Translations under genes and position numbers: made by a program | The notes under the pieces: generated by a model | What the model was told of the DNA's origin: nothing | Databases searched by the model: none | The model's input: only the letters and a program-made list of their open reading frames with translations | Source of the DNA: Actinomycetes bacterium | GTDB taxonomy: Bacteria; Actinomycetota; Acidimicrobiia; Acidimicrobiales; Acidimicrobiaceae | Direction of reading: 5' to 3' | NCBI GenBank assembly: GCA_021785255.1 | Contig: JAJYGA010000091.1 | Coordinates: 1 to 60,744, forward strand | DNA length: 60,744 bases | Part shown: positions 16,973 to 36,800 of the stretch, in pieces | How positions within the stretch are numbered: position 1 is the stretch's first letter | Layout: each line of letters opens with the position of its first letter

Positions 16973-17088
16973 GGTCTGTCTCCCTGCTCTTGGTTCCCGG
17001 GGTGCCGTTGACCGGTGGACCAACCCGCTACGGGAACGGGCCAAGCCGCAAGTAACGCTGAACGGCTGGGTGTAAGTTTAGGCTGCCG

Positions 17089-17219
17089 CGTTGAGTATTC
17101 CAGTATTCCCGCGGGTGATTATTTCAACGCTCGCGAATTATTCCAGTAATTCCCGCGATCAATTATTCTAACTCCGTGTGTCGCTACAGAAGTAACACTG
17201 ACTCCTTATCTCTCTCGAT
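17089..17219. repeat. Imperfect direct repeat, copy B
   Basis: Second copy of the repeat seen at 16339-16460. It starts with a TGAGTATTCCAGTATTCCCG-like run, has further ATTCCCGCG units, the identical 20-base core at 17183-17202 and the ending CTCTCTCGAT. It lies just beyond the stop of the istB relic, where the terminal repeats of an IS21-family element would be expected, so copies A and B may be remnants of IS21-type ends (inference). Confidence 0.85.
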
Positions 17220-17250
17220 TTTCATGTACTTTGAGACGTGATGCTCCAAT

Positions 17251-17660
17251 CTAGAGCGATAGCTGTCTTGCCCGTGGCTTCCTCATTGATTCTCCTTCCA
17301 GCTTCATTATCACAGCGTCATGAATGATTCTGTCGGATTATGGCATCGGCTGCTGTTTTGTCTTCGATGAGCAGATGGAAGTTATCTGGAGGAAACTATG
17401 AGGCAATTGCTGTAGGTGCTACATCGACTCTTTCATCTAAAATCTCGAGCAACTCCCGAGATGCCGCTATAGGCACAGGGGAGAGTCCATAGTCATCAAG
17501 CAACAGAAGATCTATCCGCCGGTAGAAATTGATTACGGTCTTATGTGTACCGTCAGCTCTTGAAAGTGCCAACGTTTCACCCAGACAGCGAGAATGGGTA
17601 CGCCAGCTGTTTTGCATGAAAGGGCCACCGCAATGGGCAGACAGACAAAAATAGGTTGCT
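17251..17660 (-). pseudogene. istB relic (IS21-family transposition helper ATPase), several frameshifts
   Basis: Read on the minus strand, three frames together give a recognisable IstB C-terminal half. One frame at about 17400-17580 gives LALSRADGTHKTV and RRIDLLLLDDYGLSP (Walker B region) then RELLEILDERV. The same frame then meets a TAG where IstB normally has a glutamine, and continues LLIEDKTAADAI. A further frame gives DRIIHDAV and MKLEGESMRK ending at 17251. The Walker A part is missing or in another frame near 17600-17660. This is an inactive remnant, not a working element. No istA is seen. Confidence 0.8.
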
Positions 17661-17953
17661 GGCAACACTTGGGGTCGGGTTGTCGTCATGTCGATCACCC
17701 TATAAAGTGACATACATGCAGTGGTGGATGCTTGCTCGAGGACGGTGCTACACGCGCCGGCTCTCCGATGCCCAGCTGGAGCGCCACGGACCCGACACCG
17801 AGCGAGGGCGCAAGCTCACCGAACTGCTCGCCGAGCTTGACGATGCTGAGATCAGCCGAGTCGAGCGGGCTGAGGGGTGGGAGACGCAAAGTGGGTGCGA
17901 GAAGTGCGAAACGTCAGTAGTACGGATTTGCGTCTTGCAGCACCGATCCGGGG

Positions 17954-18079
17954 TTAGAAGTTTCCCCAGTTCAACCACTTCAACATGTCGATGTCGAGCG
18001 CCTGGTCGGCGACTATCTTTTTCACTCGGGTGTTCTCGCGCTCGAACTCTTTCAGTCGCTTCGCGTCCTCGACCTTCAT
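17954..18079 (-). pseudogene. IS3-family OrfA C-terminal fragment
   Basis: A 41-codon reading frame on the minus strand begins MKVEDAKRLKEFERENTRVK and continues with ADQALDIDMLKW before a stop. This is the leucine-zipper tail of IS3-family OrfA proteins (compare the usual DARRLKELE...N..LK pattern). The DNA-binding helix-turn-helix N-terminus is absent, and no OrfB follows, so it is a remnant. The pyrF gene starts 33 bases to the right on the other strand. Confidence 0.8.
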
Positions 18080-18111
18080 GCCCCGTAATGTAACCAAAGT
18101 TGAGGTAACGA

Positions 18112-18975
18112 ATGATTGAAGCAGAGATCATAACCGAAGAACATTCCTTTGCAGAGCGGTGGTTTAATGTGCGGCGCCAAGGTCGCCTTCTTGTATTCGG
18201 TGCGGACCCGTCGGAAGCCCTGCTGAGACGGTGGGGTCTCAGTGTGGACGCGGCAGGCATCGACACGTTTATAGATATTGTCTTGGATGCCATCCCTGAG
18301 AATGTGGGCGTGATCAAACCTCAGTCCGCGTTCTTTGAAGCACGCGGCTGGCAAGGAATGCGGTCTCTTGAGCGCCTAATCCGGGAGGCACGGGCCATGG
18401 GAGCGCTTGTTCTCCTAGACGCAAAGCGAGGCGATATCGGCAGCACCGCCGACGCCTACGGCTCAGCCTATTTGGGGACCGCTGCGCCCCTCCAGGTCGA
18501 CGCCATAACTGTTGCGCCATATTTAGGTCTGGATGCGCTTACCCCTATGATTCATCGGGCCGCTGCCTCCGGATCTGCGGTTTTTGTAGTGGCGCGGTCT
18601 TCCAATCCGGAAGGACGCGCACTGCAAACCGCCACACTTGCCGAGGGCGTGTCGGTCGAGAACGCACTCTTGAGAGACATCGGCCGGATGAACGAGGCCT
18701 ATGGCTTAGGTACGGTCAACGCTGTCGTTGGCGTTCATACGCCGCCGCTGCGTGATGAGGTGCTCCGATCTTCCAATGCGCTGTTTCTCTGCCCAGGGTT
18801 CGGAGCGCAAGGTACGACCGCGGTAGACATTGCGACGGCCTTCCGCTCGCTTACAGACCGTGTACTGCCGACTGCGTCGCGGTCACTACTGGATGCTGGG
18901 CCCGATCCCAAGGCACTCGCTGATCGCTGGGCGACACTTAACGAAGAGCTAGCGGTGGCCTTGGCGTCCGTTTGA
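18112..18975 (+). CDS. pyrF: Orotidine-5'-phosphate decarboxylase, actinobacterial type
   Basis: A 287-residue protein that should convert OMP to UMP, the last step of de novo UMP synthesis. The catalytic motif DAKRGD is at residues 103-108, followed by GSTADAYGSAYL; VIKPQSAFFE and the late LCPGFGAQG phosphate-binding region also match the long form (about 280 residues) found in actinobacteria. The gene has no pyrimidine-synthesis neighbours. It is bordered by an IS3 fragment and a decayed stretch, and is richer in G+C than the flanking core genes, so it was probably acquired. GAGG precedes the ATG. The frame is intact and looks functional. Confidence 0.92.
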   Translation: MIEAEIITEEHSFAERWFNVRRQGRLLVFGADPSEALLRRWGLSVDAAGIDTFIDIVLDAIPENVGVIKPQSAFFEARGWQGMRSLERLIREARAMGALVLLDAKRGDIGSTADAYGSAYLGTAAPLQVDAITVAPYLGLDALTPMIHRAAASGSAVFVVARSSNPEGRALQTATLAEGVSVENALLRDIGRMNEAYGLGTVNAVVGVHTPPLRDEVLRSSNALFLCPGFGAQGTTAVDIATAFRSLTDRVLPTASRSLLDAGPDPKALADRWATLNEELAVALASV

Positions 18976-19711
18976 TGGCTCAACCCATTGGAGGGGTGTG
19001 GGCGCGTCCCCAACCGATCGTGGCGCCGGCCTCTCCTCGGGGCGGCTACTCGAACGAGATGGAATCACCGTGGTCTTGCACGCCGAGTTCTACCTCTTCA
19101 GTGGGTCTACGTTCCCGACTGGGAAGGGCATGGGTGACGTGGAGTGGGCCCGGCCATTGTCAAGCTCTTCTACGGCTGGCTCGGTTAGGGCGGGGTGCCA
19201 GTCACAACGCGCTCCAATGGATTCCCAGCTGCACGGATGGGGCGGATCAACGCGGTCCGTCAATCGGTATAGAGTATCTTGTCGGAAGCGGATTCTCGTA
19301 CGGACATTCCGTGACCGAGATGTGGTGCATAGCTGTGGGGTGGCGACAGGCTAGTTGGAATGTCGGCGTGAACGAAGTTCAGTCTCGGGTTCCTGCCCCA
19401 GCATCGGGTGCCTGTTCGCCGGGGATCAGTCGGGCGATCTATGTAATGCCGATAGTCGCGACCCTGCACGTGTCGAACCTGGAGGCCATCGTGCATCTAC
19501 AGCGCTGGCAGTTTCAAGACCTCCTGGTGTTCACTGCCGCCCGACCACCTGGGTCACAGGACCCGGCCTTCTCGTAGCAAATAGGGCGTTGGAGCACCGA
19601 ACAAGCCCTCCTTGATCGTGCTGATGCCGGGTCAGGAACGTTCCTTCGGAACACCACCCAGATTGAGGGCCGGCTTGCTCATCGTGGCGCTTGGTGCTAG
19701 GATGAATCTCC
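18976..19711. other. Stretch without a supported gene (possible decayed coding DNA)
   Basis: GC-rich DNA between pyrF and the AAA+ ATPase. Several open frames exist, the longest on the plus strand, but none gives a protein with motifs, sensible composition or a good ribosome site. Frame changes around 19080-19330 suggest old coding sequence that has decayed, but I cannot name it. Confidence 0.45.
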
Positions 19712-21259
19712 ATGGCTTGGGTAGGCTTACACCCCGCTGAGGGACGTCGTTTTGACCCCTCGGGCGGCGCCTCGGACACCAGTTCGGGGCGGCTTTATCG
19801 GCCAGGCGACGTCGGCGACGCCGGCGGGGAACCGTTGCGGCCAGAGGTGGCCGATGTGTCGCGCCTGGCACGGCGTCTCATCAGGAAGACCGTAGGGGCG
19901 GCGAGGGCCGACGAGGCCCCCACACTTGCTCGTCTGTTGGCCGAACACCTGGGCCAGGGGGTCTCTTCTCTGCCCGTAGTCGGGGCAAACTGGCCCGTCT
20001 ACGACCACGTGAATGTGCAAGTTGGCCTGGAGCACTGGCTGGGAGAGTTCGGCCGCTCGTACGTCCTCGTCGGGATCACCGGCTTCGAGCACCGTATGTT
20101 CACCTTGGCGGACCTTGCCCAACCCGCACGAGACCCGTTCAGCCCAGGCATCGGCAGCATCTCTATGGTCAGCCTGGAGTCGGGTCCCGACGGCGCCACC
20201 CACCCGGCCGTACGCTGCGCGCTGTACCTGGTCGACGAGACCGGGGGGCCATTAGCGCTGCTGGTGCATCAAGTACAGGACCACGGCCCTGGTGGCCAGC
20301 AGATCTCGGTAGAGGTCACCGGACCTGATCCCGAGCGAAGCTCCGCTGCATTGGACGAGCTTCGCCAGGCAGCGCTTGCCCATAACGTGTTCCGTGGCCA
20401 GGTGGTTGCCTTCGGCTCGGAGATGTTCGGCCCTGCTCAAGCCCCTATCGGCTTCCAGCGCCGCCCCTCGTTGCCCCGTGAGGCGTTGGTGCTCCCGCCC
20501 GGCACCTTGGAGATGGTCGAACGCCACGTAGTGGGTATCACCAGCCAGCGCGAGAAGCTCCTCGCAGCGGGGCAGCACCTCAAGCGCGGGGTGTTGTTGC
20601 ACGGCCCGCCGGGTACGGGTAAAACCCATACTGTGCGTTACCTGCTTGGCCGCTTGGAAGGCGTGACCGTCGTGATCCTCTCTGGCCAAGCCCTCGGTGC
20701 GATCGGATCGGCATGCTCTATCGCCCGGTCTCTTCAACCCTCGGTGGTGGTCGTCGAGGATGTCGACCTTATCGCCGAACATCGGGGTATGCACCCCGGT
20801 CAACATCCGCTGCTGTTCGGGTTGCTCAACGAGATGGATGGTCTCGGCGAGGACGTCGACGTGGCATTCGTGCTTACCACCAATCGTGCGGATCTCCTCG
20901 AACCGGCACTCGCTGCGCGCCCTGGGCGGGTAGATCAGGCGGTGGAGATCCCCCTACCTGACGCCGCGGGACGCCGCCGACTGATCGAGCTGTACAAGGG
21001 CAACGTGACCCTCGATGTCCCCGACCTCTCGCGCGTCATCGAGCGAACTGACGGGGTCACCGCCTCGTTCCTCAAAGAACTACTCCGACGCGCTGTCCTC
21101 CTAGCCGCAGATGGCACTGGCAACGCCGGTGGACCTGCTCCAACGGCATCTTCGCTCGTGGTGCGCGAAGTCGAACTCGACGCGGCACTGAGCCAGCTCC
21201 TCGATTCGCGCAACCGTCTCACTCGCGCCCTACTTGGCAGCGCCGACGAAGCCCCCTGA
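19712..21259 (+). CDS. AAA+ ATPase (proteasomal-ATPase/FtsH-like AAA module, no protease domain)
   Basis: A 515-residue protein. The C-terminal half is a classical AAA module: Walker A GPPGTGKT at residues 298-305, Walker B VVVVEDVDLI, sensor-1 region VLTTNRADLLEPAL, and the arginine-finger-like ARPGRVD. The N-terminal half (about 1-250) is not recognised and contains no membrane segment. There is no zinc-protease motif after the module, so it is not FtsH itself. Walker B has E-D in place of the common D-E. It is very GC-rich and stands alone. The start is uncertain: the first 45 residues are low in similarity to any fold, and GTG codons near 19840 are possible. Confidence 0.8.
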   Translation: MAWVGLHPAEGRRFDPSGGASDTSSGRLYRPGDVGDAGGEPLRPEVADVSRLARRLIRKTVGAARADEAPTLARLLAEHLGQGVSSLPVVGANWPVYDHVNVQVGLEHWLGEFGRSYVLVGITGFEHRMFTLADLAQPARDPFSPGIGSISMVSLESGPDGATHPAVRCALYLVDETGGPLALLVHQVQDHGPGGQQISVEVTGPDPERSSAALDELRQAALAHNVFRGQVVAFGSEMFGPAQAPIGFQRRPSLPREALVLPPGTLEMVERHVVGITSQREKLLAAGQHLKRGVLLHGPPGTGKTHTVRYLLGRLEGVTVVILSGQALGAIGSACSIARSLQPSVVVVEDVDLIAEHRGMHPGQHPLLFGLLNEMDGLGEDVDVAFVLTTNRADLLEPALAARPGRVDQAVEIPLPDAAGRRRLIELYKGNVTLDVPDLSRVIERTDGVTASFLKELLRRAVLLAADGTGNAGGPAPTASSLVVREVELDAALSQLLDSRNRLTRALLGSADEAP

Positions 21260-21534
21260 ACGACTCTCACATGCGTAGGGCGATACTCACGAGGCCACGT
21301 CTCATAGACGGAGGACTCGTGACGGACGCGCTGGTTGTCGGGTGCATAATTCGGGACACAACCCGCCCACGGGACTGGGTTCGATGTGGTGACGGCAGGT
21401 GTGGGGTAACCATTCAGCGGGTTTCTGGTCATTCAAGGGTTCAACCCTGGGTGTATACTGGGAGGCCAGCTTTGCTGAGTTCTCCTCAGCTCTCGGAACG
21501 GATCATCGGGACGACGATGCTGACTATCGCAAGT
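21260..21534. other. Non-coding gap between the AAA+ gene and the methyltransferase relic
   Basis: GC-rich sequence with no supported gene. A T-arm-like stretch (AGGGTTCAACCCT around 21437) occurs but no tRNA can be folded around it. Confidence 0.4.
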
Positions 21535-22130
21535 TCAGGTTTTCCTTCGGCACACGAGTTCTCCCTTGCCGATGGGGACCACGAGAGCATCGATACGCTC
21601 GTCATGGAGGGCAGCATCGATGATCGGTTGGAGTGTCTCGCGGTGATTGATGGCGTTGTCCGCTACCAGGAGGCCGCCTGGGACGAGGAGCGGCACGACG
21701 GAGTCGTAACAGGCGGCGTAGGCCTCCTTCTCGGCATCGAGGAAGCAGAACCCCACTGGGCCGATCCCATCCACATGATCTAGGAAGTCACCTTCGACGA
21801 GCGTGACCAGGTCGTCGACGCCGGCTAGTGAGAACGTCTGGCGCGCCATGGCAGCCTTCTTTGCGAGGATCTCGAAGGTCGTGAGTGTGCGGCCCGTCGC
21901 CCGGCAGGCGAGCGACAACCCCAGAGAGCCGAATAACCCGCACTGGTCCCTATCTCGATCATGGCACCCTCCGGGGCCGAGGCTGCCCAGAGCGCGATGA
22001 AGCGTCCTGTCTCCTCGGGGATTTGGCGGAGCCGGTCGAGGCGAGAGGTTCCGTCCGTACGATCGGCCTCGTCGCGCCGTTCGAGTTCATGCATCCGCTC
22101 AAGGATTTCAAATGGGATGCTGTGGAACAT
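21535..22130 (-). pseudogene. O-methyltransferase family 3, disrupted by a frameshift
   Basis: Two overlapping minus-strand frames join into one SAM-dependent O-methyltransferase of the caffeoyl-CoA-O-methyltransferase-like type. The first (22130 to about 21923) ends with the SAM motif [14 protein letters not shown]; the second carries on [16 protein letters not shown], then [11 protein letters not shown] and [14 protein letters not shown] to the stop at 21535. The junction is a run of four C on the plus strand (21919-21922), where loss of two or gain of one base would restore the frame. Either a recent pseudogene or a sequencing error. Confidence 0.82.
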
Positions 22131-23256
22131 CTAGACCTCCGGATTGACGGGCGGTTGCAGCTCGTTGTCGGCCGTGACGCATCCCGCAAGGCCGATTCGA
22201 CTCGCAAAGCAATTCTAGACCATTCCATTGGCGATCTCCTCCTCGTTGGCGCAGTCGCGGGTCGTGCTGTTGAGAAGCTCGTTGAGTCGGACGACGCAGA
22301 GCTTTTACAGTTGACGGCAAGCGTGTTGTATCACCTCGATGGTTGCCTCGACGTCAATCTGGAATCATCGGCATGACCAATGCTCTGCCGGTGTGCCGCT
22401 GTGGCCTTGTGTCAGGTGAAAACGCTGTCGTCCAGGCGACGTGTGTGTGCGTCACCGGAAACGTTGTGGAGCGGCTGGACCAAAGCTACAAACGGGTCGG
22501 AGACCAAAAAAGCCTTTCAACACTACGATGATGAGGCGCCCGCTTTTAACTTCAGATCCCGTCTTTTCCGCGACGTGCTGGCCTGGTTCTTGATTATCCT
22601 GGCATCGAAGTGTGTGCTGGTTAGGCCGCAGATCGTTGTGAGGGACCGTATGGAGGTGACGCTTGAGCGCCATTACCAACTCCGTTTTCAAAGGAAAGCG
22701 TTTTGGGTGGTAGTGAGTCGATGACGTTCGTGGAAAAGGCGATTCGCTTTGCTGGGGTCTTCGCCTTAGTGGCCGGTCGCTAAGTCAAGCGGTACCACGT
22801 TTCAACCCCTGATTGACCCAGGGCTGGAGCATGTTGCCTGTGAGTTCTTATGGGCGCTTTCGCTCGAAATCGATCAAGCGACTCTCCTCCAGCGGGGTTC
22901 ACAGTCTTGCGCCGTGTCCGCCAAGGAGTTTTCTTCGACGCGTTCAGTTGGGTATGGGACGATGTGATCGCGTGCCGGAACCCAGCCCGATGTACCATTT
23001 CTTGGCTGCGACACTGAAGACCCACGACGTTTATACTGCTTTTTAGGCCATGGGCCGGTTGCGTATAGGAAATTGCCCTTTTGCATAAACACTCAGCCTA
23101 GGTACGCGACATCCTGGAACCCGCGCAGGTGAAGCTGGCTGATACCTGGCTATTGTACAACTTGCGACGACAGATTCCGGAGTCTTGCGACCAATAATGT
23201 ACATGAAAATGAGTGCAAGATGAGAGCGAAAGGCGTAAGCAGTGTGCAGTTAGTTA
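22131..23256. other. Long stretch without a supported gene (decayed DNA)
   Basis: About 1.1 kb of mixed composition in the island. Short open frames occur on both strands, the longest near 22380-22724, but codon usage, length and motif content give no support, and no product is recognised. I see no tRNA, CRISPR or clear insertion-sequence ends. The right part (from about 23160) is AT-rich. Confidence 0.45.
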
Positions 23257-23829
23257 TTACGTAGGACGAGCTTCCTTCGATAGAGAAGGAGTGGGCTGAG
23301 CAGTGTCGTTCCCGGGCAGCACAATCGTCCCAAAGACCCATCGCTTGCGACCGACCCTAGGCGTATTAGCAAGGAGTGGCTGCAGGATTGTATTCAGCTG
23401 TAGGGTAACTTCCCGTCGTTCAGCATCATCGAGCCATATACCGGCCATGCCGTAGCTGACCCCGTCTCTCAGTAGGTCTATATTCCCGCGTGCAAGATAG
23501 CGGTCGAAGTCACCGACAAGCCCGGCTATAAAGGCGATAAACGCCTGACGGTGCTGGTCGGGCGTCATCTCGGCTAGTTCCTTCACGTTCACCTTGGCGG
23601 CTGATTGCCGTAGGACGTAGGTGCGTTCAATCGCACCGCGGACTTGACGCTCGGCGACTACGGCAAGGACGCCACCGTTGACCAAGAGCGCAACATGGCG
23701 GTAGAGGCTCGCTACAGGTATGTCAGCAAGCTCGTTTCGCAGATCGGTCGTGGTGAGTGCTCGGTCGCCGAGAAATGCGCGCAATATCCGAAGCCGGATG
23801 GGGTGAAGGAGTAGGTCAGCGCTAGTCAT
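23257..23829 (-). CDS. Winged-helix transcriptional regulator (ArsR/HTH_20-like)
   Basis: A 190-residue regulator. The N-terminal 70 residues form a winged helix: LLLHPIRLRILRAFL, then LTTTDLRNEL, then VASLYRHVALLVNGGVLAVV, as in ArsR-like regulators that often govern a divergent ABC exporter. The C-terminal half is predicted helical and may bind a ligand or dimerise. It is divergently placed to the PLDc_N/ABC operon, 48 bases from its first start codon, with a palindrome in between, so it probably represses that operon and itself (inference). Confidence 0.83.
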   Translation of the reverse strand: MTSADLLLHPIRLRILRAFLGDRALTTTDLRNELADIPVASLYRHVALLVNGGVLAVVAERQVRGAIERTYVLRQSAAKVNVKELAEMTPDQHRQAFIAFIAGLVGDFDRYLARGNIDLLRDGVSYGMAGIWLDDAERREVTLQLNTILQPLLANTPRVGRKRWVFGTIVLPGNDTAQPTPSLSKEARPT

Positions 23830-23864
23830 TTTTATTGGGCTTGTCTCCCAGTTGGCATTGTAGT

Positions 23865-23882
23865 ATCATTATTAGTAATGAT
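23865..23882. promoter_or_regulatory. Palindrome over the first start codon of the ABC operon (candidate operator)
   Basis: ATCATTA-TTAG-TAATGAT is a perfect 7-base inverted repeat with a 4-base centre. The right arm contains the ATG (23878) of the PLDc_N gene. It lies in the 48-base divergent gap next to a winged-helix regulator gene, the usual place for its binding site. A role as operator is inferred. Confidence 0.6.
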
Positions 23883-24093
23883 AGCATATATCGACTTGAC
23901 CGTCTTTGGTTCAGCAACGGTTGCGCTGGCGCCGATCGCTATCGTGGCGTTAACCTTCGAGGTCTTTTGCCTGGTCGATGTCTTACGCTCCGAGAGAGTG
24001 CGATTCCTGCCTCGCTGGGTGTGGGCGCTGATCATTCTCATCTCCGTCCCGCTTGGCGGCATCATCTACCTCGTCGTTGGGCGGCAACGTTGA
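23878..24093 (+). CDS. Small membrane protein, PLDc_N (YxlE-like)
   Basis: A 71-residue protein with two hydrophobic segments (about residues 12-34 and 48-66) and the PLD nuclease N-terminal-like signature: FCLVDVLRSERVRFLPRWVWALI followed by PLGGIIYLVVGR. In Bacillus, YxlE of this type sits beside the YxlFG ABC exporter, the same arrangement as here. No ribosome site precedes the ATG, which lies in a palindrome, so a leaderless or very short-leader transcript is possible. Its TGA overlaps the TTG start of the ATPase gene. Confidence 0.82.
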   Translation: MIAYIDLTVFGSATVALAPIAIVALTFEVFCLVDVLRSERVRFLPRWVWALIILISVPLGGIIYLVVGRQR

Positions 24094-25016
24094 ACGGCCT
24101 GCGTACCCACTGCCTGTCCAAGTCTTATGGCGAGACCGAGGCCGTGCGAAACATCGACCTTGAGGTGCCAGCAGGTGCCATCTATGGCCTGGTGGGGCCA
24201 AACGGATCTGGCAAAACCACGACCTTCGAGTTGCTGGCCGGACTTCGGCACGCAACTGCTGGAACCATCGAGTGGGGCGTTCCTCTCAACCAGGTTGCTT
24301 ACTGCCCAGACACGCCGGAGTTCGAGCCATGGCTGACTGCCATGGAGGTTCTTGATGCGGCATCCGGTCTGTTGGGAAAGCCGCGGCCGAGGAAAATTCT
24401 GGTGGAGATGCTCGACCATGTTGGGCTTGCAGACTCAGCCGCGCACAGGGTGGGGGGCTTCTCGCGTGGGATGACTTCACGTCTCGGCATAGCCGCAGGC
24501 CTGATAGGCGAGCCAAAAGTTCTTATTGCTGACGAGCCGGCAGCAGCACTCGACCCGGCCGGTCGTCGGGAGGTTATCGACCTCCTGGCCCACCTCCGGG
24601 ACTCCGTAACGGTGATCGTCTCCAGCCACGACCTCGCTGACGTGCAGAGAATATGTGACAGTGTCGGTGTTCTTACCCGTGGCCAGCTCGTTTACCAGGG
24701 CTCTGTCGACGACTTGCTGGCCAAGGCGTCGACAGTTCTTCGGATTCTGGTCCACCCTCCAGCGACCTGCCTGAAGAACCTAATCAGCGACGCTCCGTGG
24801 GTCCAAAGCGTACGAGAAGAACAGCCGGGGGAACTCATCGTCGACGTGACCGACGCAAGAGAAGCAGAGCTGCACATGGCGCGCCTGATAGCCCAAAGCA
24901 ACACTGGGCTGATCGAGTACGGCCGAGCAGGCGCCAGCTTGCAGGACATCTTCTTTGAGCTGACCGAGACCGGCCGATACAGTCAACGCAAGCACAAGGC
25001 AGGGGATCCTCAGTGA
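24090..25016 (+). CDS. ABC exporter ATP-binding protein
   Basis: A 308-residue ATPase of the YxlF/CcmA-like export group. Walker A is GPNGSGKTTTF, the signature is GGFSRGMTSRLGIAAGL (S-R-G-M in place of LSGGQ), and Walker B is VLIADEPAAALDPAGRRE, followed by the switch histidine in VSSHDLADVQ. The C-terminal 90 residues form the extra domain seen in this group. The frame is open far upstream, but the TTG at 24090, overlapping the stop of the PLDc_N gene (TTGA), is the natural start. The permease follows with a 4-base overlap. Confidence 0.9.
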   Translation: MNGLRTHCLSKSYGETEAVRNIDLEVPAGAIYGLVGPNGSGKTTTFELLAGLRHATAGTIEWGVPLNQVAYCPDTPEFEPWLTAMEVLDAASGLLGKPRPRKILVEMLDHVGLADSAAHRVGGFSRGMTSRLGIAAGLIGEPKVLIADEPAAALDPAGRREVIDLLAHLRDSVTVIVSSHDLADVQRICDSVGVLTRGQLVYQGSVDDLLAKASTVLRILVHPPATCLKNLISDAPWVQSVREEQPGELIVDVTDAREAELHMARLIAQSNTGLIEYGRAGASLQDIFFELTETGRYSQRKHKAGDPQ

Positions 25017-25768
25017 GCCCTTGGCGCCTAGAGCTTCTAAGAATTATGCGCACTCGCCGACTGATCGCCCTCGTCGCCATGTTCGTGATACTCGGTGTTG
25101 GGGGACCTGTACTTGTGCACTATCTACCTCAAATCATAAAAAGCAAGACTGCTACCAGCGACATCAAGCTGATCCTGCCCAAGCCGAAGCCGTTCGACGG
25201 AATCCAGAACTTCGCCAACAATATTTCCTCGTTATGCACGTTAGTAGTAGCAATCGTGGCCGCTGCAAGCCTCGCAATCGACGCGAACCCCGTCATCGCC
25301 ATTTTCTATCGAACACGGGTACGCAAACCGGCGCCGCTCCTTGTGCCGCGCTTCGTTGCGGTGATTGGTGCAAGTGTAGTTGCTCTAGCACTGGGAACGT
25401 TGGGAGCCTGGTACGAAACCACGGTGCTAATCGGCTCCCTGTCCTTTGGACCGTTGGTCGTCGGTTTTCTTCTCGAGGCGCTATGGCTGTTCTTTGTCGT
25501 TAGCACGGTCGCGTTTTTTTCGAGCGTGATACGAAGCGTTCTTGGCGTTGTCGGCGCGACAGTCACACTATTCCTAGCCCTCGCTCTGTTGGAAAGTGTC
25601 CCTGGCGTAATGTCATGGATGCCTACTCGCTTAGCAGAAAGTGAAGCTGACCTAATAGGTCATCCTGCGGGTGTACTCTGGCACGCTATCGTGACTGCTG
25701 GGATCGCAAGCCTGTTGGTGTTCGGAATAGCTATATATCTATTCGGGAGACGGGAGGTGTCGAGATGA
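25013..25768 (+). CDS. ABC exporter permease
   Basis: A 251-residue membrane protein with about six hydrophobic segments and a long extracytoplasmic loop after the first (about residues 40-70). It has the layout of ABC-2-type permeases that pair with YxlF-like ATPases. GTG start overlaps the ATPase stop (GTGA). The substrate is unknown; a drug, peptide or lipid export or a stress role are all possible. Confidence 0.85.
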   Translation: MSPWRLELLRIMRTRRLIALVAMFVILGVGGPVLVHYLPQIIKSKTATSDIKLILPKPKPFDGIQNFANNISSLCTLVVAIVAAASLAIDANPVIAIFYRTRVRKPAPLLVPRFVAVIGASVVALALGTLGAWYETTVLIGSLSFGPLVVGFLLEALWLFFVVSTVAFFSSVIRSVLGVVGATVTLFLALALLESVPGVMSWMPTRLAESEADLIGHPAGVLWHAIVTAGIASLLVFGIAIYLFGRREVSR

Positions 25769-25959
25769 GAGATGCCAGTCAGACACGGGAGATGCAGTCA
25801 ACTGGTGAAGAGGTAACCTTCGAGAGCAACGAGTTGACGATGACAGGTAGCACCGGGGACGCAGAGGTCCCATTCGTGAGAGCGGAGAGGGTTTCACATG
25901 GACTGATTCAGCAGGTTCTTATTAGCGTATGTGTATTCCTGAAAGTGCTCTTGCGATAA
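25765..25959 (+). CDS. Short hypothetical protein at the island's right end (maybe truncated)
   Basis: A 64-codon ORF that overlaps the permease stop by 4 bases (ATGA), which argues that at least its start is genuine. The first 45 residues are acidic and polar; the last 20 run over the 3' end of the convergent acyl-CoA dehydrogenase gene and are probably read-through of unrelated DNA. The original protein was probably longer and was cut off where the island joins the core genome. Confidence 0.45.
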   Translation: MRDASQTREMQSTGEEVTFESNELTMTGSTGDAEVPFVRAERVSHGLIQQVLISVCVFLKVLLR

Positions 25960-27133
25960 TAAGGCGTTGAATCTCTGAAGTCCCTTCAAAGATGGTGTAA
26001 ATTTTGGCATCGCGGTGCCATTGCTCGACGTAATTCTCCCTCACATAACCGTACCCGCCAAGAACTTGAATAGCTTGCTCTGTAACCCAAACGGCAGTCT
26101 CCCCAGCTTGTAGCTTTGACATCGATCCTTCACCGTGGGTAAAGGGGACGCCGTTCGCCGCCATCCATGCCGCTCTCCAGCACAGTAAACGAGCTGAGTC
26201 GATCTTTGTTACCATGTCGGCAAACTTGAAGGCTATTGCTTGATTGTCGATTATTGGTCTACCAAACTGTGTTCGATTTTTTGCATACTCTAGAGAGTAT
26301 TCATAAGCAGCGCGGGCAATTCCAACTGCTTGTGCAGCTACTATAGGCCTTGAGGCTTCAAATGTGGCCATGGCGGCTTGCGACTTTGATCTCTCACCTT
26401 GTCGTGCTCTTGCGAGTCGTTCGTCTAAGCGTGCCTTGCCACCAAGAAGACAGTTCCCCGGTACTTTTACTTCCTCTAATATGACTTCGGCTGTATGAGA
26501 AGCCCTGATTCCCATTTTTTTAAATTTCTGGCCCTGTGACAGTCCAGCAGTTTTTGGAGGAACTATGAAGCTTGCCTGACCTCTTGCGCCAAGTTCTGGG
26601 TCGACACTTGCAACTACGACGTGAACATCAGCGATTCCACCATTTGTGATCCAGGTCTTGGTTCCGTTGATAGTCCAGGTGTCGGTGCTTTGATCGTACG
26701 TGGCTCGAGTCCTGAGTGAGGAGACATCGGAGCCTGCGTCAGGCTCGGTAACTGCAAAAGCAGCTATCTTGACATCATCCGGGGTTCCAAAACACTGTGG
26801 TAACCACTCGGTGATCTGCTCTGGCGTCCCATTGGCCATGATTCCGGCTACAGCAAGAATTGAGCCAAAGATTGAAAGGGTGATGCCAGCGTCTCCCCAT
26901 GCCATCTCTTCATTGACAAGAGCTAGAGTCAGCCCCGACTTGTCGGCATATCCGTTGGCGATGAAGTCGAGGGAGTATAGACCGGCCTTAGCGGCCTCCT
27001 GAATGATGGGCCAAGGGGTCTCTTCTCTTTCGTCCCACTCGCGGGCTGCTGGTCTGACTACTCGTTCGGCAAAATCATGTACCCATTTTTGTATGTCTTT
27101 TTGATCTTCACTTAGGGATAGGGAGAACTCCAC
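25922..27133 (-). CDS. Acyl-CoA dehydrogenase
   Basis: A 403-residue FAD enzyme of the acyl-CoA dehydrogenase family. Landmarks: FAVTEPDAGSDVSSL (substrate and flavin site), WITNGGIADVHVV, the helix RTQFGRPIIDNQAIAFK, and the C-terminal IQVLGGYGYVRENYVEQWHRD with IFEGTSEIQRLIIAR. The catalytic base position in the last helix region fits short/medium-chain members, though chain length cannot be read. GTG start with GAGG 7 bases before. A perfect palindrome lies 74 bases upstream. It stands downstream of valS on the same strand. Confidence 0.92.
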   Translation of the reverse strand: MEFSLSLSEDQKDIQKWVHDFAERVVRPAAREWDEREETPWPIIQEAAKAGLYSLDFIANGYADKSGLTLALVNEEMAWGDAGITLSIFGSILAVAGIMANGTPEQITEWLPQCFGTPDDVKIAAFAVTEPDAGSDVSSLRTRATYDQSTDTWTINGTKTWITNGGIADVHVVVASVDPELGARGQASFIVPPKTAGLSQGQKFKKMGIRASHTAEVILEEVKVPGNCLLGGKARLDERLARARQGERSKSQAAMATFEASRPIVAAQAVGIARAAYEYSLEYAKNRTQFGRPIIDNQAIAFKFADMVTKIDSARLLCWRAAWMAANGVPFTHGEGSMSKLQAGETAVWVTEQAIQVLGGYGYVRENYVEQWHRDAKIYTIFEGTSEIQRLIIARALSGIHIR

Positions 27134-33067: not shown

Positions 33068-34642
33068 GTGGATGAGCGGCAGGAGAAGCTGAGGCGGTCG
33101 AGCTTCCCTATTTTCCTCAGAGCAGCTGCTCTAGCTCTAAGTGCGTTAGTTCTGGCCGTGTTTGCAATTGACTCCAAAGCGCAGAGTATCTCGTTTAAGA
33201 ATCAAAACCAACGGCCCCTTGCGGCTCAGCAAGCTACGTTGTCGGTGTCGTCTAGTTCTAGCCTCAACTGGCAAGGCTTTGGAGCTTCGGGAGCGTGGTG
33301 GCCCGGTCCGATATCTGGCTTTTCTCAAAGCGCAAAGAACCAACTTGGTAAGATCCTTTTTTCTCGCAGTGGTCTTTATCTGGCTCAATATCGATACAAC
33401 ATCGGCGGAGGTGGAGTAGGTGTTATAGTGCCTTGGAAGGCGCCGTCAACTTTCTATGTCGGGCCGTCTAAATACAACTGGTCGGCCGACTCCGCTGGTA
33501 TCGAGTTCTTGAAGATGGCAAGTCGTTATCATGTGGCTGACCTTGTTGGCTTTGTAAACTCCGCACCACCTGCCTTTACGACCAATCACCTCTCTTGCGG
33601 GGGTTCGCTCAATCCGTTAGACGTTTCCTCCTATGCCACCTATCTAGCTCAAGTAATCCGAGGTATCAAGGAGCATTTTGGGGTTACTGTGAACTACGTA
33701 TCACCCATGAACGAACCCGATAATAACTTTGGTTCATGCAAACAAGAAGGCATGGCGGTTCCGGTCGAGCTACGAGCCCGAGTAGTGATAGCTGTTGGCA
33801 AAGCTCTAGCGAAGTATGCTCCATGGTGCAAGGAGATTGCAGACGAGTCTTCCAAGGTTTCGACTTTACTACTTCCTCATCTCCATAGATGGGCTGATAA
33901 CCCTCAGGTATTAAAGTATCTGGATGTCGTGGCTCACCATCTTTACGACTTTCCAGATAAAACTGTTCTGTCGGAGATGGCAGCCAGCGTATCAGCACTA
34001 CATAAACCGTCTTGGATGACGGAGATCTGCTGTTATAACGGGGCGCACTTTGGATATCAATACGACCCGACCATGGTCTCAGGTATGTGGCTGGCTCGCA
34101 CGATATATAGTGACATCACGTACGGGCGAGATCAAGCCTTTGATTGGTGGACTGCAGTATCTCCGAACCTTGGATGTGATCCGAAGTCGAGTCCGAGATG
34201 TTGGGATCAAGTGAACTACTTGGGTCGAAACGATGGGCTGGTCTACTACAACATTGCCGGTGCGAAAAATGGTGATCAGAACTTTTATTTGACCAAGAGA
34301 TTTTACGTGTTTGGAAACTACTCTCGATTTATTCGACCAGGAGCTAAAGTTTTCTCTGTGCAGTCGGACTCTCCCAGCGTCTTTGCAATTGCGGCGCGAA
34401 GCCAAAACACGTGGACGGTGGTTGTAGGAAATGAAAGTGCATCCGCAAAGCCGTTGACATTAGAGATTGATTTTCCGGAACGTCGCATGACTTTGATACC
34501 TATAGAAACGGTGGTGACGGATGCGACTGCAAACTGGCAGAAGGGAACTCTGCCTGATGTTAAAGGAGAAAGGGTTGTGACGTCAATACCTCCAAACTCT
34601 GTCACGACCTTCGTATTTCAGAGTAAGGTGGAAGCAAAATAG
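33068..34642 (+). CDS. Secreted glycoside hydrolase family 30-like enzyme
   Basis: A 524-residue secreted glycosidase. The first 40 residues are a signal peptide (basic start, then FLRAAALALSALVLAVFAI, cut near SKA-Q). The catalytic domain has the GH30 pattern: start WQGFGASGAWW, acid/base Glu in YVSPMNEPDNNFG, nucleophile Glu in SWMTEICCYNG, then a beta-sandwich domain at the end (TWTVVVGNESAS...TFVFQS). Relatives act on glucuronoxylan, beta-1,6-galactan or beta-1,6-glucan. GTG start after AAGGAGAA. It stands alone, so it probably works on external polymer or on the cell's own exopolysaccharide. Confidence 0.85.
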   Translation: MDERQEKLRRSSFPIFLRAAALALSALVLAVFAIDSKAQSISFKNQNQRPLAAQQATLSVSSSSSLNWQGFGASGAWWPGPISGFSQSAKNQLGKILFSRSGLYLAQYRYNIGGGGVGVIVPWKAPSTFYVGPSKYNWSADSAGIEFLKMASRYHVADLVGFVNSAPPAFTTNHLSCGGSLNPLDVSSYATYLAQVIRGIKEHFGVTVNYVSPMNEPDNNFGSCKQEGMAVPVELRARVVIAVGKALAKYAPWCKEIADESSKVSTLLLPHLHRWADNPQVLKYLDVVAHHLYDFPDKTVLSEMAASVSALHKPSWMTEICCYNGAHFGYQYDPTMVSGMWLARTIYSDITYGRDQAFDWWTAVSPNLGCDPKSSPRCWDQVNYLGRNDGLVYYNIAGAKNGDQNFYLTKRFYVFGNYSRFIRPGAKVFSVQSDSPSVFAIAARSQNTWTVVVGNESASAKPLTLEIDFPERRMTLIPIETVVTDATANWQKGTLPDVKGERVVTSIPPNSVTTFVFQSKVEAK

Positions 34643-34712: not shown

Positions 34713-35822
34713 ATGAACTCTTACCACGCCCCTTTGTCGGTAGTTGTAATGGCAGCCGGAGAAGGCACTCGAATGAAATCTCAACGACCGAAACCATTGC
34801 TCAAGTTATGTGGGAAAACCATGTTGGAACATATTTTGAGTGCCTTGGAAGAGATCGTTTTAATAGATCGTGTTGTCATAGTCGTAGGACACAAAGAAGA
34901 AGAGATACGTTCTGAGTTGTTAGCTCAGTACAAAGGCAACTTAGAGCTTGTATTCGTTAGACAGGAAAGTCTCAGAGGAACGGGAGACGCGTTGTCCGTA
35001 GCGATGACGCGTATAACAGATCCAATGACAGCCTTGGGTGGTCGTAGAGGCGCGGTCATGGTCATGCCTGCTGATGTTCCTCTTGTTGATGCTGAGACGT
35101 TGACGTCCCTGGTTGAAACTCACTTCTCGAGTAGCTATGCGGCTACGCTCTTGACGGCGTTCTTGGAGAATCCCTTCGGATACGGTAGAGTTCTTCGGTC
35201 AAAGACAGGTTCAGTCGTTGGTGTGGTGGAGGAACGAGATGCATCCGAACAAGAACGTCAAATCCAAGAGATCAATACATCGCTTTACATCTTTGATACT
35301 GCTCCGTTGCCAGCTGCACTTCGACGACTAGCTCCATACAACTCTCAAGGCGAGCTTTATCTTACTGATGCGGTGTCAGTTCTCTCCGACGCGGGGTATT
35401 CGATTGGATCTTTGATGGTGGATGATCCTTCGCTGGTGATGGGTGTAAACGATAGAGCCCAACTTGCTGATGCTGAGAAGGTTATGCGTGGCAGGATTAA
35501 TTCAAATTGGATGAAGGAGGGCGTCACTTTGATAGATCCTGACGTGACCTACATTGACTGTAGGTCCACACTGGGGGAAGATGTGACGATCTGGCCGGGA
35601 GTTGTACTTGAAGGCACCACGACGATAGGATGGGGATCAGAAATTGGACCTGGCTGTCGCCTCGTTGACTGTGTAGTTGGTGAAAAAGTGCGCCTATCGT
35701 ACTGCGAAGCTAATAATGCTTACATTGGCGATGGAGCAAACGTAGGACCATTTGTAGACTTGACTCCAGGAACGAAGGTGGCGCCACACCAAGAGATTAG
35801 ATCCACTAGGAACACGGAGTAA
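34713..35822 (+). CDS. glmU: GlmU-like UDP-GlcNAc pyrophosphorylase, acetyltransferase part missing
   Basis: A 369-residue protein with the uridyltransferase domain of GlmU: VVMAAGEGTRMKSQRPKP at the N-terminus, GTGDALSVAM, VMPADVPLVD and FGYGRVLR. It then enters the left-handed beta-helix (LGEDVTIWPGVVLEGTTTIG) but ends after GDGANVGPFVDLTPGT. Full GlmU is about 450-490 residues; the acetyl-CoA-binding half with the catalytic histidine is absent. prs starts 6 bases after the stop, so this is not a simple frameshift. Glucosamine-1-phosphate acetylation must be done by another protein, or the enzyme serves another sugar. ATG 34713 is chosen over TTG 34695, which overlaps the ribosome site. Confidence 0.87.
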   Translation: MNSYHAPLSVVVMAAGEGTRMKSQRPKPLLKLCGKTMLEHILSALEEIVLIDRVVIVVGHKEEEIRSELLAQYKGNLELVFVRQESLRGTGDALSVAMTRITDPMTALGGRRGAVMVMPADVPLVDAETLTSLVETHFSSSYAATLLTAFLENPFGYGRVLRSKTGSVVGVVEERDASEQERQIQEINTSLYIFDTAPLPAALRRLAPYNSQGELYLTDAVSVLSDAGYSIGSLMVDDPSLVMGVNDRAQLADAEKVMRGRINSNWMKEGVTLIDPDVTYIDCRSTLGEDVTIWPGVVLEGTTTIGWGSEIGPGCRLVDCVVGEKVRLSYCEANNAYIGDGANVGPFVDLTPGTKVAPHQEIRSTRNTE

Positions 35823-35828
35823 TAGTAG

Positions 35829-36800
35829 ATGGAGCTCGTGCTACGGAGAAGACTTGAACTTTACGCAGGTAGAGCTCATAGAGAACTGGCAGTCGAAGTC
35901 GCAAAGCATCTTGAGGTAAGACTTGGACCCATGGTGCTCAAAGACTTTGCAGATGGTGAAATATACTGCCGTTTTGGGGACTCGGTACGAGGTAAAGATG
36001 TATTTATACTTCAAACTCATGCTGGTCCTGTCAACGACTCGATCTTCGAGCAGCTCATCATGATCGATGCAGCGAAACGAGCGTCGGCGGATCGAATTAC
36101 TGCAGTTTGCCCGTACTACGGGTACTCGCGTCAAGACAGGAAGTCAGCGGGACGAGAGCCGATAACGGCTAAGTTGGTTTCAGATCTATTTGCGGCGGCT
36201 GGTGCGGATCGTATCGTGTCGGTAGATCTGCATTCAGGGCAGATCCAAGGATTTTTTGATGGGCCCGTAGACCATCTGACTGCCATGCCGGTCCTGATTG
36301 ACTATCTAAAGAGCTTTGGCAATGAGGACTTTGTCATAGTAGCCCCTGATGCGGGTCGCGTAAAGGTAGCCTCTCGCTACTCCCAGTACCTGAATGCGGA
36401 TGTTGCTTTTGTGCATAAGCGACGTCCAAAAGGGACGGCAAACGTTGTGGAGGCCCTTGATGTAGTGGGAGAAGTATCAGGGCGAAGATGTGTGCTCATT
36501 GACGACATGATAGATACGGCCGGGACGATATGTGCGGCAGCAGAGCTTTTGATAGCACGGGGAGCGTCTGAGGTGTGGGCGATGGCAACACATGGACTGT
36601 TATCAGGTCCAGCGGTTGACCGCCTGAAGGCGTCAGACATCTCCAGGGTGGTTGTTACAGATACGTTGCCGTTACCAGAAGATCGACGCTTTGACAAACT
36701 TGAGGTTCTTTCAATCGCTAAGATCTTGGCCGATGCCATTGCTGCTGTGTTTGAGGACGGTTCGGTCTCCAATATCTTCAAAGGTGATAATCTCTCATAG
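35829..36800 (+). CDS. prs: Ribose-phosphate pyrophosphokinase
   Basis: A 323-residue PRPP synthetase, which turns ribose-5-phosphate and ATP into PRPP for nucleotide, His and Trp synthesis. Motifs: FADGEIYCRFGDSVRGKDVF, the ATP-binding YYGYSRQDRKSAGREP, divalent-metal VDLHSGQIQGFFDGPVDHL, and the PRPP loop VLIDDMIDTAGTI. Length is normal. It follows glmU after 6 bases, the order conserved in actinobacteria and firmicutes. Confidence 0.96.
   Translation: MELVLRRRLELYAGRAHRELAVEVAKHLEVRLGPMVLKDFADGEIYCRFGDSVRGKDVFILQTHAGPVNDSIFEQLIMIDAAKRASADRITAVCPYYGYSRQDRKSAGREPITAKLVSDLFAAAGADRIVSVDLHSGQIQGFFDGPVDHLTAMPVLIDYLKSFGNEDFVIVAPDAGRVKVASRYSQYLNADVAFVHKRRPKGTANVVEALDVVGEVSGRRCVLIDDMIDTAGTICAAAELLIARGASEVWAMATHGLLSGPAVDRLKASDISRVVVTDTLPLPEDRRFDKLEVLSIAKILADAIAAVFEDGSVSNIFKGDNLS

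Follow-up and report, generated by a model that had tools for sequence, protein, structure and literature searches.

A uridylyltransferase-only GlmU in the Acidimicrobiales and a candidate GNAT for its acetylation step

The Acidimicrobiales encode a GlmU that ends shortly after the start of its beta-helix, and this truncation is an order-wide state that recurs in other lineages and is not peculiar to the genome in which it was noticed. In bacteria GlmU is regarded as a standard bifunctional enzyme, and drug-target studies deal with its acetyltransferase half. The best explanation of the order-wide state is that the loss of this half goes back to an ancestor of the Acidimicrobiales. Most likely, in this soil-, water- and acid-loving order and in at least two other groups, a small unrelated acetyltransferase took over the work of the missing half of GlmU. 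We think it quite probable that the short GlmU is accompanied by a non-homologous GNAT protein of ~145 amino acids, here called GNAT A, which serves as the acetyltransferase, and that the replacement was repeated in the Actinomycetaceae and the Anaerolineaceae. We also lean, with somewhat less confidence, towards the broader reading that members of a bacterial GNAT family lacking any curated name took the place of the GlmU acetyltransferase domain on three or more separate occasions (in the Acidimicrobiales, in the Actinomycetaceae, including Actinomyces oris and A. naeslundii, and in the Anaerolineaceae), that the family has been horizontally transferred, and that some of these lineages perhaps follow the eukaryotic order of steps via GlcNAc-6-P. 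If this is true, UDP-GlcNAc synthesis relies on a different enzyme for its acetylation step in the whole order, in the Actinomyces group and in some Chloroflexota; a function would then be attached to a GNAT family, and it would be wrong for metabolic reconstructions to call GlmU either complete or broken in these groups.

The short GlmU of the window and its relatives

The window, i.e., the whole stretch of 60,744 nucleotides that was analysed, makes up contig C151 of a genome of 2.57 Mb (96% complete, referred to below as G000) that encodes one GlmU. The features of the gene and its surroundings are collected in Table 1. A first-pass annotation, made from the sequence of the window, had described the gene as a GlmU that stops early in the beta-helix and is cleanly cut, with prs following in 6 bases, and both observations were confirmed. 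Matches of the protein to the curated GlmU models end at position 339 of 452 in TIGR01173 (325.3 bits, below the cut-off of 366.85) and at position 349 of 488 in NF010932 (375.7 bits, below the cut-off of 611), and its alignment with the GlmU of M. tuberculosis holds to about residue 350. Past the final sense codon the frame continues TAA TAG TAG ATG, the last triplet being the start of the gene that we take to be prs; because this ATG lies 6 bases past glmU and is preceded by three in-frame stops, there is no space for a remnant of the acetyltransferase domain.

Table 1. Features of the glmU region, in window coordinates
Feature	Position	Strand	Basis
glmU, uridylyltransferase-only form, 369 aa (ATG at 34713, TAA at 35820-35822)	34713..35822	+	ORF, curated-model matches, stop reading
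Uridylyltransferase (NTP transferase) domain, about residues 5-250	34725..35462	+	Pfam PF12804/PF00483, alignment
Short left-handed beta-helix remnant, about residues 269-357	35517..35783	+	Pfam Hexapep 285-317, alignments
Thr351 codon, at the place of Arg in L-R-P-G of full-length GlmUs	35763..35765	+	Alignments
TAA TAG TAG, three in-frame stops right before prs	35820..35828	+	Base reading
Next gene, presumably prs (ribose-phosphate pyrophosphokinase), ATG at 35829	35829..36800	+	ORF list; name from sequence

Alignment with full-length GlmUs indicates which parts of the enzyme have been retained. The motifs MAAGEGTRMKS..PK, ADVPL, GELYLTD and GVNDR of the uridylyltransferase domain are common to both, and everything past GPFVDLTPGTKVA is missing from the window protein, including the PHLSYIGDA and NYDG segments. 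In the full-length enzyme the PHLSY histidine serves as catalytic base and the Arg of L-R-P-G contacts the substrate. The beta-helix remnant stops short of the acetyltransferase active site, and the full left-handed beta-helix with its acetyl-CoA / GlcN-1-P site is absent; what is left is a one-function GlmU-type protein, with a uridylyltransferase domain and no acetyltransferase domain. Because the uridylyltransferase motifs are kept, the short GlmU is read as a uridylyltransferase, and it follows from these motifs that the gene is predicted to encode a uridylyltransferase-only GlmU that makes UDP-GlcNAc from UTP and GlcNAc-1-P, rather than a bifunctional GlmU.

Matches to the window protein at E <= 1e-30 were obtained in 4 of 4 genomes of the genus, 39 of 42 of the family and 202 of 248 of the order. 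Part of the 202 order matches were listed individually. In the family, each of 30 GlmU rows has its end at one common position; 20 of 20 additional order rows that contain a beta-helix and whose end could be read are short (one of them is G000 again), and so are 20 of 20 order rows picked mostly because their open frames seemed able to hold a complete enzyme. Three more order rows (L210, L313 and L315, the last two from one genome) are without any beta-helix. Of five class members outside the order, four have a full-length GlmU, and that of G455, the remaining one, is cut by the contig end. Within a phylum sample, the GlmU matches listed from genomes outside the order reach the model end.

Several side observations were made along the way. 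The match to the GlmU model ends near position 250, leaving the uridylyltransferase domain alone, in some members of the order: G095, G182, G223, G239 (family f55), L210 and L313. The window GlmU has no counterpart at E <= 1e-30 in 46 of the 248 order genomes (e.g., G064, G071, G072, G084, G087, G090 and G103); an enzyme of the UAP1 type is a candidate for the uridylylation of GlcNAc-1-P in such genomes. Directly upstream of glmU in the window (33068-34642), and in two relatives (L043:6850-8406 and L051:6115-7719), lies a secreted glycoside hydrolase-like gene, which we take to be GH30-like. The GC content is 0.61-0.64 at 18-22 kb and about 0.47-0.51 over most of the window, and the frames at 17000-26000 look different (PyrF-like and AAA ATPase-like by eye); this region may be a foreign island or an assembly join.

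The missing half and the candidate acetyltransferase

In G000, glmM and glmS adjoin one another, with scores of 470 and 705.7 bits that are both above the curated cut-offs. The pair is also side by side in G004 and G106, where glmM scores 418.2 and 398.4, respectively, under the cut-off of 447.55; a glmM-like frame was present in the stretch read of G061 and of G098, and neither gene in the stretch read of G089. The presence of glmS and glmM means that glucosamine phosphate is made and that an acetylation step is therefore required ahead of uridylyl transfer, which supports the earlier suggestion that a GlmU lacking its acetyltransferase half needs a separate enzyme. A split of the bifunctional protein, as was also suggested, is unlikely: no separate gene for the missing half was found in G000, and the best candidate is a non-homologous GNAT. 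Searches of G000 found no second GlmU, full-length or otherwise, no detached GlmU C-terminal domain (no G000 match in the NF010932 search extended past profile position 350) and, with PF00132 and the GlmU models, no stand-alone GlmU-type hexapeptide acetyltransferase. The scanned hexapeptide proteins of G000 are CysE, DapD and a gamma carbonic anhydrase-like protein; the remaining hexapeptide matches are frames on contigs C151, C51 and C42 that are also hit by the GlmU model in its NTP-transferase part, and weak matches in short frames on C20 and C166. No acetyltransferase adjoining glmU was seen by eye in ten loci from the order.

Candidates were taken from all PF00132 (hexapeptide) and PF00583 (GNAT) matches of six genomes of the order, grouped by reciprocal best hits; the grouping covered most matches as loci and took in only part of the GNAT loci of G061 and G089. 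The widely shared groups whose G000 member was named by family scan comprised CysE, DapD, RimI, MshD, the gamma carbonic anhydrase-like protein (an assignment that scored under its cut-off) and an ArsN1-like GNAT, candidate B. GNAT A is encoded outside the window, at G000:C98:15926-16354. Its matches to curated NCBIfam families are weak and all below cut-off, and Pfam assigns it the general GNAT domain PF00583. The grouping placed it in five of the six comparison genomes, and a profile search recovered it from the sixth, G061. Candidate B is present in all six; at E <= 1e-20 it was found in 43 of 47 order genomes and in 10 of 33 others, including G295, which has a full-length GlmU. It was set aside because of this distribution, being missing from four of the 47 and present in ten genomes outside the order.

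The profile of GNAT A matched 47 of 47 order genomes at E <= 1e-42. Among 33 actinobacterial genomes from outside the order, none matched at E <= 1e-20 and five gave weaker, mostly partial matches (best 1.2e-18). A larger profile applied to a second set of genomes matched 42 of 44 from the order and none of 36 others, which, without double counting, brings the two sets to 89 of 91 order genomes versus 0 of 64 other actinobacterial ones; both sets consist of genomes that we chose from those met in earlier searches, and any gene acquired by the ancestor of the order would be distributed similarly inside it, whatever its role. No match to GNAT A was obtained in the order genomes G068 (92% complete) and G114 (89% complete); the gene is present in G070, which shares its genus with G114. 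As a separate observation, 18 of 20 tested order genomes that have no GlmU match keep GNAT A. Among the loci inspected there was none in which GNAT A adjoins glmU, glmM or glmS; in the order, the genes around it include those for citrate synthase, PAC2 and NUDIX proteins (names by eye).

Across 49 sequences of GNAT A the mean column identity is 58%, and 27 positions are invariant, including P21-Q22-L23-S24 and E76-D77 as well as five arginines (R72, R114, R117, R132 and R138). An AlphaFold2 model (mean pLDDT 96.3) has the GNAT fold. Foldseek, run with this model, returned as its first row T. brucei Tb11.01.2886, which we take to be the GNA1 of that organism, and placed the Arabidopsis and C. 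parvum GNA1 structures within the first 30. In VIA-align many GNATs lie within one or two Z units of each other (C. parvum GNA1 at Z 17.2 as compared to 18.6 for the best), several other GNATs being level with or above GNA1; by sequence, the named GNA1 structures are weak matches to GNAT A. Because the GNAT fold yields many tied matches, we do not name a substrate from the fold alone; the model supports the designation "GNAT" and would be compatible with a GNA1-like action.

A scan of named genomes, of which the best 80 of at least 515 relatives were considered, located GNAT A in Acidimicrobiales, Actinomycetaceae (Actinomyces oris, A. naeslundii, A. dentalis, A. ruminicola, A. denticolens and A. 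bowdenii, as well as Schaalia and Trueperella), two Anaerolineaceae and Micromonosporaceae. Records labelled Acidobacteriota and Saccharibacteria (L256 and L259) also contain it, and may reflect either transfer or mislabelled bins. GlmU was then looked up in 26 genomes chosen for carrying GNAT A, some of which may duplicate genomes in the family and order counts: 17 have a truncated GlmU and three a full-length one, in one it lacks a beta-helix, in one it runs off the contig, and in four it was unmatched. The truncated GlmUs are those of five Acidimicrobiales, of 10 of 10 Actinomycetaceae and of 2 of 2 Anaerolineaceae, and in the latter two families the cut points are unlike those of the Acidimicrobiales and the proteins sit on separate branches of the tree. 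The three genomes that have GNAT A and a full-length GlmU together are Micromonosporaceae.

In a tree of the uridylyltransferase half, the GlmUs of Actinomycetaceae nest among full-length actinobacterial ones (support 97/93 and 98/91), apart from those of Acidimicrobiales, which indicates that their truncations arose separately; the Acidimicrobiales rows form one clade with weak support (44/52). In the GNAT A tree, whose root is not fixed and many of whose inner branches are weak, the Actinomycetaceae are one clade (100/98) and the Micromonosporaceae group with a row labelled Streptosporangiaceae, a placement that suggests the movement of GNAT A between lineages by transfer. The pairing of GNAT A with a truncated GlmU in two other lineages supports the proposed role more strongly than does its distribution within the order.

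The proposed pathway and its alternatives

In the pathway that we propose, GlmS would supply GlcN-6-P, GlmM would convert it to GlcN-1-P, GNAT A would acetylate GlcN-1-P with acetyl-CoA, and the short GlmU would carry out the last step to UDP-GlcNAc, the same replacement having presumably occurred at least twice more, in the Actinomycetaceae and the Anaerolineaceae. We infer that GNAT A is the acetyl supplier from its near-perfect distribution in the order and its pairing with truncated GlmUs in two other lineages; its substrate would be either GlcN-1-P or GlcN-6-P. Counting against this role are the lack of linkage to glmU, glmM or glmS in the loci inspected, the three Micromonosporaceae that have both proteins, the two order genomes with no GNAT A match, and two other lineages (f66 and G320) whose GlmU is damaged and which lack GNAT A. 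GNAT A is likely to be a glucosamine-phosphate acetyltransferase that works like GNA1, a comparison of action that carries no claim of membership in the GNA1 family.

A variant within this explanation, to which we assign a little under half of its probability, is that GNAT A would act on GlcN-6-P ahead of GlmM, as in eukaryotes, and that GlmM would then handle GlcNAc-6-P. The known substrate of bacterial GlmM is GlcN-6-P, which counts against this order of steps, as does the glmM score of G000, which lies above its cut-off, as expected with a GlcN-1-P intermediate. The glmM genes of G004 and G106, which fall below theirs, and the appearance of GNA1 structures among the matches to GNAT A speak for the variant, as does the preference for GlcN-6-P of the eukaryotic GNATs of this step and of Mimivirus L316 that is described in PMC9614988.

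It is rather unlikely that some other acetyltransferase (candidate B, i.e., an ArsN1/phosphinothricin-type GNAT, a hexapeptide enzyme or a protein of another fold) does the work and that the distribution of GNAT A is coincidental. Such a reading can point to the wide occurrence of B in the comparison and order genomes, to a candidate listing that drew on Pfam PF00583 and PF00132 only, and to the genomes that must rely on something besides GNAT A: G320 (f87), whose GlmU carries an internal deletion, and six genomes of family f66 in which it is truncated or degenerate, all of them lacking GNAT A, so that GNAT A is not the sole way to live without the acetyltransferase domain. Against B are its absence from four of 47 order genomes, its coexistence with a full-length GlmU in G295 and the action of its relatives, judging by family name, on amino-acid-like compounds; and any enzyme other than GNAT A would leave the pairing of GNAT A with truncated GlmUs in two other lineages unexplained. 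The GlmUs with truncated or internally deleted beta-helices are L193, L194, L196, L198, L202 and L203 (f66) and L192 (G320); L192 and L193 keep an apparently natural C-terminal tail and have lost the middle, and three f66 genomes of the same genus (G355, G385 and G428) have a full-length GlmU.

We regard as very improbable that no acetyltransferase is needed because GlcNAc is taken up, or recycled from wall material, and then phosphorylated. The damaged GlmUs without GNAT A in f66 and G320 would fit such a supply. The order includes free-living autotrophs and acidophiles, and glmS and glmM stand side by side in G000, G004 and G106, an arrangement that would be pointless to keep unless an acetylation step exists. 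Finally, there is a negligible chance that a sequencing error, or a frameshift newly arisen in this genome, accounts for the truncation: nothing was found in favour of it, the short GlmUs of relatives throughout the order refute a strain mutation and three in-frame stops and prs lie directly behind glmU.

Comparison with known systems

We found no report of a bacterial GlmU replaced in this manner among the titles and abstract openings listed from open-access full text in PMC (bioRxiv lay outside the search), which is weak evidence of absence. The bifunctional GlmU described by TIGR01173 and NF010932 has the uridylyltransferase domain, the start of the beta-helix and the single copy in common with the window GlmU, which differs in being without the acetyltransferase part and in scoring below both curated cut-offs. 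The beta-helix is cut in a similar way in a 331-residue construct of E. coli GlmU (PDB 1FWY/1FXJ), reportedly engineered and still active as a uridylyltransferase; the cut described here is natural and order-wide. Eukaryotic GNA1, the GlcN-6-P N-acetyltransferase, is a small GNAT like GNAT A, and the strand I-E-D-V-V-V of GNAT A aligns with ieDvvvd of Tb11.01.2886, but the identity between GNAT A and GNA1 in structural alignments is about 19-26%.

Precedents for the recruitment of a GNAT to this step come from outside the bacteria. The apicomplexan GNA1, according to PMC5838249, is an independently recruited GNAT that has become a glucosamine-phosphate acetyltransferase; it differs from GNAT A in being protozoan and of another GNAT family. 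In Mimivirus, as set out in PMC9614988, R689 (255 aa) resembles the N-terminal half of GlmU and L316, a GNAT of ~148 aa, acts on both GlcN-6P and GlcN-1P, so that the virus combines, as the Acidimicrobiales are proposed to do, a one-function GlmU-type uridylyltransferase with a free-standing GNAT. The two systems differ in that one belongs to a virus, that R689 is shorter than the window GlmU, and that the phosphomutase step was, in the same source, not identified for Mimivirus, whereas glmM is present here.
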